A stretch of DNA of 64,000 nucleotides, from the NCBI RefSeq assembly GCF_003944755.1, contig NZ_RWGU01000047.1, positions 124,001-188,000 on the forward strand, in the 5' to 3' direction. The position numbers and the translations under genes are program-made. Positions 31,158 to 64,000 of this stretch are shown here, one piece after another. Every line of letters starts with the position of its first letter. Within the stretch, counting starts at the first letter, position 1. Source of the stretch: Rhodovulum robiginosum. GTDB taxonomy: Bacteria > Pseudomonadota > Alphaproteobacteria > Rhodobacterales > Rhodobacteraceae. The notes under the pieces are model-generated. The model was not told the DNA's origin. It saw only the letters and a program-made list of their open reading frames with translations, and did not search any database.

Positions 31158-31176
31158 ATTGCTGCAATGCAGCAAT
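31158..31176. promoter_or_regulatory. PhaR-type operator (CTGC-N3-GCAG palindrome)
   Basis: ATTGCTGCAATGCAGCAAT, 9-bp arms around one base, containing CTGC-AAT-GCAG, the known recognition pattern of the PHA regulator PhaR in Paracoccus/Rhodobacter. The same 19 bp occur at 63124-63142 before the granule protein gene. It lies 81 bp from the cupin start and 77 bp from the ORF at 31254. Identification is by similarity to the published consensus. Confidence 0.6.
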
Positions 31177-31253: not shown

Positions 31254-31451
31254 ATGAGCAACGACGACATTCTGACGCGCATCTTCGGGGTGACGCGCCA
31301 CTTCATGCACCCGGCCGAACGGCCGGATCAGGCCGCCCGTGGCCGTGGCTGGGTCGATGCCTGGGGCCGACCCACCGAAGACGGTCGCGACCTGATCGAT
31401 GCGATGCAGGATCAGGAATCGACGCGGGGTGTCTACCGCCTGCTGGGCTAG
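31254..31451 (+). CDS. Small hypothetical protein with a PhaR-type operator upstream
   Basis: 65 residues (MSNDDILTRIFGVTRHFMHP ... STRGVYRLLG). I do not recognise the family and see no membrane segment or signal peptide. The ribosome site is weak. The nearest regulatory sign is the PhaR-type palindrome at 31158. It stops 31 bp before repeat copy 4. Being real is supported by base usage and by room between eno and the cupin gene. Confidence 0.55.
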   Translation: MSNDDILTRIFGVTRHFMHPAERPDQAARGRGWVDAWGRPTEDGRDLIDAMQDQESTRGVYRLLG

Positions 31452-61946: not shown

Positions 61947-62987
61947 TCACGGCTCCACCCGCCAGTGCAGCGGGAAGCCGGGGTCGAACACCGTCACCGG
62001 GCCGTCGCCGGTGTCGATCCGGGCCGGGTAGTCGACCGAATCACCCTTGGCCAGCGTCAGGGTCGCGGTGTTGGGGGCCAGCCCGTAAAACGCCGGCCCG
62101 TTCAGCGAGACGAAGGCCTCGAGCTTGTCCAGCGCATCCGCGCGTTCGAACACCTCGGCGAGACAGGACAGGGTGTTGGTGGCCGAGAACACGCCGGCGC
62201 AGCCGCAGGCCGATTCCTTGTTCGGGTCGGTATGCGGCGCGCTGTCGGTGCCGAGAAAGAACCGCGCGTCTCCGCTCGTCGCCGCGGCCACCAGCGCGTC
62301 ACGATGCCGGGCGCGCTTGGCCACGGGCAGGCAATAATAATGGGGCTTGATGCCGCCAACCAGGATGTGGTTGCGGGTGATGATCAGGTGATGGGTGGTG
62401 ATCGTCGCGCCGAGGCCGCTGTCGCTTGCCTTGACGTAATCCACGCCGTCGGCGGTGGTCAGATGTTCCATCACGACCTTCAGGCCGGGTGTGGCCAGCC
62501 GGATCGGGTCGAGCACCCGGTCGATGAACACGGCCTCGCGGTCGAAGATGTCGACCTCGGGGTCGGTCACCTCGCCATGGACGCAGAGCGGGCAGCCGAT
62601 CTCGGCCATTTTTTCCAGCACGCCGCGCACCTTGTCGAAATCGGTCACGCCCGAGTCGGAGTTGGTGGTCGCGCCCGCGGGGTAGAGCTTGACCGCGGTG
62701 ACAAGGCCGCGTGCATGGGCTGCCGCCACGTCCGCCGGGTCGGTCTTTTCGGTCAGGTAAAGCGTCATCAGCGGCGTGAAATCGGTGCCGGCGGGCATCG
62801 CGGCCAGGATGCGGTCTCGATAGGCCGCCGCGTCCTTGCCCGTCACGACCGGCGGCACCAGGTTGGGCATGACGATGGCCCGGGCGAAATGGCGTGCGGT
62901 TTCGGGCAGGACGCCTTGCAGCATCGCGCCGTCGCGCAGGTGCAGGTGCCAGTCGTCGGGGCGGCGGATCGTGAGGCGCTCGGTCAT
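61947..62987 (-). CDS. pyrC: Dihydroorotase (class II)
   Basis: 346 residues. Metal-binding [10 protein letters not shown] (His14, His16), carboxylated Lys100 in [18 protein letters not shown], and the later HGEVTD, EHLTT and FLGTDSAPH sites. Fits the E. coli-type dihydroorotase. Start ATG 62987; the frame stays open upstream as shadow. Confidence 0.96.
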
Positions 62988-63122
62988 GGGCTGTGCGGTT
63001 ACACAATCCGCGCCGCGCTTTCCAGCGGTTTCACGCCGCCGGCGCGTGGCCGCGGTGCGCACCATGCCGCCCGCCTCGGCGCGGCGGTCGGCTGGCAGGC
63101 TTTCGCGCGTGGGCAAAAGGCG

Positions 63123-63143
63123 CATTGCTGCAATGCAGCAATG
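63123..63143. promoter_or_regulatory. PhaR-type operator before the granule protein gene
   Basis: Contains the same 19 bp as at 31158-31176 (ATTGCTGCAATGCAGCAAT) plus one more paired base on each side. Holds CTGC-AAT-GCAG. TTGCTG inside it plus TAGACT 16 bp on could form the promoter, so bound PhaR would block RNA polymerase. It lies 103 bp before the ATG at 63246. Confidence 0.7.
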
Positions 63144-63245
63144 TGGTAGACTGCGCCCCGACGCCCGGCACCGCCGTCCGGCGGCCGTGCAGGGCTGGCC
63201 AATTGATCGGGGCCCCGTGCCCCAGAAACAGGAAAGGAAACCGCG

Positions 63246-63824
63246 ATGTCCGCTTTTGCCGCGCCGCTGGCCCTGACAAGCAGCTACATGAAGTTCTGGC
63301 AGACCACGTTCGAGACGCAGGTGCGTCTGACGGCGTCCTGGATGGAGATGGTCCAGCGCTACAATCCGCTTTTTTCCGCGATGACCACCGAAGAGCTGGC
63401 GCAAGCCTACGCGCCCGCCGCCCGCAAGACCGCCGCCACGCCGGCCAAGAAGCGCCCCGCGCCGGCGGCCAAGAGCGCGCCCGCTAAGGCGCCCGCCGCT
63501 GCGCCGAAGGCGCCGGCCAAGGCCGAGAGCCCGGCGCCCAAGCCCGCCGCGCAGACCGCCAAGCCGGCGGCAGAGAAGCCTGCGGCGCCCAAGACCGCGG
63601 CAGAGAAGCCTGCTGCGCCCAAGACCGCGGCAGAGACGCCTGCCGCGCCCAAGACCACCGCGGAGAAACCTGCGGCGTCCAAGGCCGCCGCCGAGAAGCC
63701 TGCGGCGCCCAAGGCCGCGGCCACGACCACGGCCACGCCGGACAAGACAAAGACGGCGTCCAAGCCCGCGCCGCGCCGCCGCCGCAAGAAGCCGGCCAAT
63801 CCCGAGCAGCCCTTCAAGAGTTGA
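63246..63824 (+). CDS. PHA granule-associated phasin-like protein with Ala/Lys/Pro repeat tail
   Basis: 192 residues. N-terminal 55 residues form an amphipathic helix set ([20 protein letters not shown]) as in granule-binding phasins. From residue 57 the chain is Lys/Ala/Pro-rich, like histone H1 or PhaM, with five decapeptide repeats [10 protein letters not shown] at 108-157 and a basic end RRRRKK (177-182). Such tails bind DNA; in Ralstonia, PhaM links PHA granules to the nucleoid. PhaM-like function here is inferred from layout and the PhaR-type site upstream. Confidence 0.7.
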
Positions 63825-63932: not shown

Positions 63933-64000
63933 ATGGCCTTTGCAGATACAACCCCCCAGGGCGCCGCCAGCCCCTCGGTCCGCGGCGCAGGATTGCTCGC
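63933..64000 (+). CDS. Start of a gene cut by the window end
   Basis: ATG 63933 preceded by AGGAG with 7-bp spacing; the visible start reads MAFADTTPQGAASPSVRGAG. Too short to identify. It follows the granule protein by 108 bp on the same strand. Confidence 0.6.
   Translation, partial: MAFADTTPQGAASPSVRGAGLL

Follow-up and report, generated by a model that had tools for sequence, protein, structure and literature searches.

A PhaR-linked phasin-like protein with a long Lys/Ala/Pro tail in Rhodovulum robiginosum and its relatives

The locus and its neighbourhood

The window, the whole 64,000-nucleotide stretch of Rhodovulum robiginosum DNA that was analysed, carries near its right end an intact open reading frame that starts with ATG and encodes 192 amino acids (Table 1). 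A short head joined to a long Lys/Ala/Pro tail with five decapeptide repeats and a basic end had been described in the initial annotation, and this arrangement is seen in the intact frame; the product and its relatives are termed KAP-tailed, or KAP, proteins here. The composition is dominated by Ala (57 residues), Pro (29) and Lys (25), with 8 Arg, which gives a pI of 10.4 and a net charge of +21. GC in the frame is 0.87 at the third codon position and 0.66 at the second. The five decapeptides begin at residue 108, and the array that encodes them has a period of 30, 5.4 copies, 86% matches and a score of 228 in Tandem Repeats Finder.

Table 1. Features of the window that are discussed in the text
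Feature	Position	Strand	Basis
Second exact PhaR-type operator of the window	31159..31175	.	Palindrome scan
65-aa ORF behind the second operator, no Pfam family	31254..31451	+	ORF
pyrC (dihydroorotase), divergent, locus marker	61947..62990	-	Named from sequence; in 16/16 congeners
PhaR-type operator TTGCTGCAATGCAGCAA, 104 bp before the ATG of the KAP gene	63125..63141	.	Exact palindrome; R. sphaeroides site
Possible promoter TTGCTG, 16 bases, TAGACT, overlapped by the operator	63125..63152	+	By eye
KAP-tailed phasin-like protein, 192 aa, stop codon included	63246..63824	+	ORF; family by head profile
Helical phasin-like head, residues 5-39 and 41-54	63258..63407	+	AlphaFold; hhalign to PhaP6-like proteins
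Tail, residues 55-192: disordered, Lys/Ala/Pro, basic end	63408..63821	+	AlphaFold, composition
30-bp tandem array coding five decapeptides	63559..63721	+	Tandem Repeats Finder
Conserved C-terminal motif, residues 175-190	63768..63815	+	Alignment of relatives
Start of a 70-aa DUF1127-like gene running beyond the window end (L021:1933-2145)	63933..64000	+	Pfam DUF1127, weak

The AlphaFold model, built with 4 sequences in the alignment, has a mean pLDDT of 56.9 and a pTM of 0.24, a low overall confidence that is expected for a chain that is mostly disordered. The two predicted helices both lie in the head, where residues 11-40 reach pLDDT values of 82-89 per 10-residue block; residues 55-192 form neither helix nor strand in the model.

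The surroundings of the gene were compared in 17 neighbourhoods, that of R. robiginosum itself and 16 others. A divergent pyrC lies upstream of the KAP gene in 12 of them, as far as the fetched stretch extends, and in 10 of the 17 the KAP gene stands between ureB and ureC, in some cases with one or two extra small genes ahead of ureC. A short PhaP6-like phasin gene follows directly downstream in 6/17, and a small DUF1127-like gene, assigned by eye, is present within about 2.5 kb downstream in 9/17. The 70-amino-acid DUF1127-like gene of R. robiginosum itself scores under the Pfam cut-off (E 0.058, 13.6 bits against a cut-off of 23.3). The gene order in one congener (G256) is pyrC, ureA, ureB, KAP, ureC, DUF1127-like. 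At five loci (L138, L140, L141, L145 and L148) the gap between ureB and ureC contains both a KAP-tailed and a PhaP6-like gene, which interrupt the urease operon.

Eleven Rhodovulum genomes have no clear KAP copy. Their pyrC-upstream region shows no KAP open reading frame, and a DUF1127-like frame is found there within 1 kb of pyrC; at one of these loci (L190) it stands behind a 185-amino-acid frame. The simplest reading of this gene order would be a single ancient locus, with separate lineages having lost urease, KAP or PhaP6-like genes from it. The ureB-ureC placement of the KAP gene, seen in 10 of the neighbourhoods, suggests a genetic link of nitrogen acquisition with carbon storage.

The head and its family

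The head is a member of no defined phasin family. For the KAP protein Pfam returned zero families up to an E of 10; the four that NCBIfam gave are weak and unrelated, at E 0.82 or worse. With the heads of 22 family members as queries, NCBIfam returned zero families, phasin_PhaP6 (NF045536) included, and Pfam yielded no phasin family and two irrelevant single hits. The Pfam Phasin family, that of PhaF and PhaI, is PF05597. Phasin_2 (PF09361) matched two other genes of the R. robiginosum genome and missed the KAP gene, and a search of the PDB with the head profile gave no match.

Profile comparison gives a different picture. The profile of 22 heads aligns with six PhaP6-like proteins at an hhalign probability of 90.7% (E 1.3e-6, 42 columns), and with a seventh, used as a single sequence, at 87.9% (E 3.2e-6). 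Single-sequence controls against the same profile reached 0.21% for the main PhaP, 0.26% for PhaR, 0.13% for a DUF1127-like protein and 0.08% for a Fur-type protein named by eye; an earlier and smaller comparison, 8 head rows with 2 PhaP6-like rows, had given 18.4%. In genome searches the head profile also retrieves PhaP6-like genes, in G322 (E 1.1e-4) and G048 (E 1.4e-5). Five of the six PhaP6-like downstream neighbours match NF045536, with a best E of 2.1e-8, all of them far under its 100-bit cut-off (22.5 bits for the first one), and the label PhaP6-like thus denotes the nearest model for sub-cut-off matches. The PhaP6-like proteins, whose head resembles that of the KAP proteins, have only a short basic end in place of the long tail. 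The amphipathic moment of the head helix is by itself weak evidence for a phasin; it exceeds that of shuffled sequences at p<0.05 in 6 of 22 heads.

Overall, the head looks phasin-like by descent while lying outside any defined phasin family, and this likeness, which Pfam and NCBIfam do not see, needs profile comparison to be detected. The phasin-like head of the initial annotation is borne out by the profile similarity to PhaP6-like phasins, together with the PhaP6-like gene that immediately follows at 6 of the 17 loci. Judged by these sequence relationships, the KAP protein probably associates with granules.

The spread of the family was followed with the head only as query, lest tail composition decide the matches; the possibility that KAP matches reflect mere composition was rejected for this reason. 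A single-sequence head search gave few clear relatives, and head profiles were therefore grown in two rounds, to 8 and then 22 heads. With E limited to 0.001, the 22-head profile found matches in 37 of the 394 Rhodobacteraceae genomes searched, a set with roughly one genome per genus. Members of the profile itself are counted among the matches, as are PhaP6-like genes and probable false hits. The last eight of the 38 match rows stand without new loci and unopened, with the exception of G215, which is locus L091. Twelve opened loci were absent from the profile, and nine of these encode a tail rich in K/A/P; at eight of the nine, urease genes or pyrC are no more than about 1.5 kb away. The remaining three are a PhaP6-like gene, a tail-less frame of 57 amino acids at a ureAB locus (L177) and a probable false match. 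Two groups of weakly matching frames were set aside as non-members: those of about 730-800 amino acids matched by the single-head search, which are fatty-acid-oxidation-like by eye, and those of about 140-260 amino acids that match positions 27-53 of the 8-head profile only, the opened ones of which look unrelated.

A class-wide sample beyond the family gave a match in 1 of 385 genomes, that of R. robiginosum itself, in a search of limited sensitivity that left at least four other same-family genomes of the sample unmatched. Within Rhodovulum a clear KAP copy is found in 5 of 16 genomes, and no head match better than E 0.029 in the other 11, so the function of the protein is dispensable. Co-occurrence with phaC was dropped as support: phaC is nearly everywhere (381 of 394 genomes, among them all 37 with head matches), which makes it uninformative. 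A plasmid search with a tailed member gave no match; a PhaP6-like neighbour matched five Paracoccus records, and on the two plasmids opened the PhaP6-like gene adjoins pyrC, with no KAP gene seen among the open reading frames listed. The open-access literature searched contains no description of a KAP-tailed protein. By their sequences, the KAP proteins are an uncatalogued Rhodobacteraceae family.

PhaR-type operators

Rhodobacter sphaeroides PhaR is reported to bind CTGCNNNGCAG (PMC12542648). A perfect operator of this type lies upstream of the KAP gene, overlapping a possible promoter that was recognized by eye and is not among the results of a consensus promoter scan. A scan of the window for the extended palindrome, with up to 3 mismatches, returned two places (four strand-wise rows) where 0.12 are expected; the short PhaR core occurs twice against 2.9 expected and is hence not unusual. 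The two palindrome places (Table 1), both exact, are also the sole exact matches to TTGCTGCNNTGCAGCAA in the whole genome. With up to 2 mismatches allowed, there are 13 forward and 15 reverse rows genome-wide, where the reversed control has 2 and 6. The phaZ-phaC-phaP-phaR cluster of the same genome has two similar palindromes ahead of phaP.

Among the relatives, the operator follows the genomic setting. Six of the seven KAP genes outside urease operons, that of R. robiginosum included, have an operator with 0-3 mismatches of 14 within 400 bp upstream; it is exact in G231 as well, and none was found within this distance of the gene in G330. Shuffled sequences equalled the six sites in 0, 0, 0, 0, 1 and 7 of 200 trials, with 0/200 for the R. 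robiginosum site. The copies embedded in urease operons have an operator within 400 bp in 0 of 10 cases, their best sites showing 4 or 5 mismatches, a level that shuffled sequences also reach in 20-146 of 200 trials. At one embedded locus (L138) an exact box lies between pyrC and ureA.

Control of the KAP gene by PhaR, which the initial annotation had put forward, is upheld by the perfect operator and is likely as read from the DNA. Together, head and operator make PhaR-linked phasin-like protein a well-supported label for the gene product. PhaR bound to the operator would repress the KAP gene, and accumulating polyhydroxybutyrate (PHB) would draw PhaR away and derepress it, as expected from the operator and published PhaR biology.

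Several other genes are found behind PhaR-type palindromes. The 65-amino-acid frame behind the second operator of the window may be an undescribed PHB-linked gene. In G248 and G249 its relatives immediately precede the KAP gene and have PhaR-type boxes (L150 and L149); another is located near pyrC in G248 (L191:150-341, read from the pyrC side). Two DUF1127-like genes of the R. robiginosum genome, of 75 and 77 amino acids, also lie behind such palindromes (L022:8543-8887 and L026:6443-6844); their assignment is weak, the first being under the Pfam cut-off and the second judged by eye. This arrangement suggests that PhaR governs several DUF1127-like genes, including the one downstream of the KAP gene. 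A further palindrome, with 1 mismatch on one strand (L023:8991; G000:C28:333988), stands shortly before the likely start of a gene recognized by eye as NADH-dehydrogenase-like.

The tail, its C-terminal motif and possible roles

The R. robiginosum tail has a net charge of +20 over 153 amino acids, with K+R at 20%. Statistics were obtained for 21 of the 22 members, those whose tail was delimited by the script. Length ranges from 48 to 298 amino acids, net charge from -5 to +39 and charge per residue from -0.02 to +0.22; 19 of the 21 tails carry +6 or more, and the other two have +1 (L064) and -5 (L091). Among the five Rhodovulum with a clear copy, tails of 69-153 amino acids have net charges of +1 to +20, the congener G249 standing at +1. 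Tail length thus differs several-fold between species, and none of the three congeners aligned has the decapeptide array.

It could be supposed that the product is a phasin-like granule protein whose repeats grew by neutral slippage in a GC-rich genome, the tail serving only for solubility or as a hydrophilic brush. The array, 86% identical in DNA and missing from the aligned congeners, speaks for this, as do the tail-less frame at the ureAB locus and tails as short as 48-56 amino acids. This explanation is improbable, however, as K/A/P tails recur in 9 of the 12 loci found by the head alone and the C-terminal motif is kept across genera.

The motif, RRRxxxPAxPxQPF, is the conserved part of the tail. 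Twelve of 22 members have PxxPF no more than 6 residues from their end, and L083 has a near variant; in the twelve, the tail between head and motif measures 29 to 179 residues. The last 16 residues up to PF have a mean identity of 58% in the 12 members and of 53% in the 8 that remain at one member per genus; random tail windows gave 17% in 2000 draws (sd 2%, maximum 24%). The best pair of windows inside the tails, with all offsets allowed, also reaches a mean identity of 56%, so that the argument for the motif rests on its fixed position.

The motif may be a docking site. Its fixed position, set against the variable charge of the tail, makes docking a serious rival to DNA binding, or a complement of it. 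The tail would then serve as a flexible spacer in place of a DNA tether, with the motif docking a partner (PhaC, PhaZ, another phasin or a nucleoid protein) away from the granule. The identity of the last 16 residues and the changing length and charge of the tail ahead of them point this way, and five members that lack PxxPF (L088, L093, L095, L170 and L173) share, by eye, an ending of the VSLPPDLPPSK kind after a basic patch. Yet 10 of 22 members are without the strict PxxPF end, free-offset windows reach nearly the same identity, and the basic character of the motif would also allow it to bind DNA. A spacer with a docking end is a possible but rather unlikely explanation.

Several known granule proteins have comparable tails. 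The KAP protein has the disordered, positive, Lys/Ala/Pro-rich tail that marks tailed linkers of the PhaF, PhaM and AlgP kind. Histone-like KPAA-type tails are described for PhaF and AlgP, and such peptides bind DNA (PMC5658603, PMC9239181). The architecture is closest to that of Pseudomonas PhaF with its tail-less partner PhaI. PhaF likewise has a helical granule-binding head and a histone-like repeat tail, and its gene adjoins that of PhaI much as some KAP genes adjoin a short tail-less phasin (PMC5658603). In contrast to PhaF, the KAP head is about 55 amino acids long and without a Pfam family, and the gene has a PhaR-type operator; the net charge of +21 compares with +35 quoted for PhaF (PMC9239181).

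Three PHB-nucleoid linkers, each from a different bacterium, are named in a recent review: PhaM, PhaF and PhaH (PMC13052382). PhaM of Ralstonia eutropha, as described there, is a proposed granule-nucleoid link with a histone-like domain, which the KAP protein may resemble in this, and also activates PhaC. PhaH of Caulobacter crescentus is described as a phasin with one end on granules and the other on DNA; it uses a helix-hairpin-helix domain, whereas the part of the KAP protein after the head is predicted to be disordered and has no such Pfam domain. In the initial annotation, a PhaR-controlled alphaproteobacterial counterpart of PhaM was said to be a convergent solution. This overstates the case, as an alphaproteobacterial tether is not new in kind: PhaH is already reported as a PHB-nucleoid tether in Caulobacter (PMC13052382).

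AlgP of Pseudomonas aeruginosa shares with the KAP protein a helical N-terminus and a disordered KPAA-type tail, and has a granule-spacing role on polyphosphate granules; its N-terminal part is of 124 amino acids, and the account consulted mentions no phasin or PhaR link (PMC9239181). The same account reports that AlgP repeat number changes in isolates, a precedent for the remark in the initial annotation that the decapeptides invite length variation. On the strength of the tail composition, which resembles that of the AlgP tail that spaces polyphosphate granules (PMC9239181), the KAP protein might act as an H1-like protein of the nucleoid or of polyphosphate granules, and play no part on PHB granules. 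The similarity of its head to PhaP6-like phasins, the PhaP6-like neighbour and the PhaR operator make this highly improbable.

The best explanation is an accessory PHB granule protein of the tailed-phasin type, repressed by PhaR, with a tail that holds DNA; taken as a whole, it has about an even chance of being correct. By homology, the short helical head would bind the granule surface or other phasins. By analogy with PhaF and PhaM, the disordered Lys/Arg-rich tail would project from the granule and hold DNA non-specifically, and granules would stay spread over the nucleoid and be shared at division, as has been proposed for those two proteins. The tethering of DNA by the tail, which rests on this analogy, is slightly less than an even prospect; it is weakened by a tail charge that varies among relatives, down to +1 in one congener, and by the 11 of 16 Rhodovulum genomes without a clear copy. 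A Rhodobacteraceae tailed-phasin family would make granule positioning testable in a further group. The variation within Rhodovulum, with a clear copy in 5 of 16 genomes and varied tails, represents a natural experiment on the tail.

A broader and more speculative proposal, which we hold to be doubtful, is that Rhodobacteraceae have an uncatalogued granule-handling module of their own at one locus, made up of pyrC, a PhaR box, the tailed phasin, a PhaP6-like phasin and a DUF1127-like protein, with urease often threaded through. The tailed phasin would be an arm of tunable length, consisting of a granule-binding head, a flexible K/A/P spacer and a conserved C-terminal docking motif; it would have arisen separately from PhaF, PhaM and PhaH and would tie granule handling to nitrogen supply via the urease operon.

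A repeat-rich open reading frame of another composition, Glu/Ala/Pro, is found elsewhere in the R. robiginosum genome (L024:3661-5569; G000:C28). It surfaced through composition only, is partly masked in the stored DNA and is followed by a frame that is cytochrome-c-like by eye.
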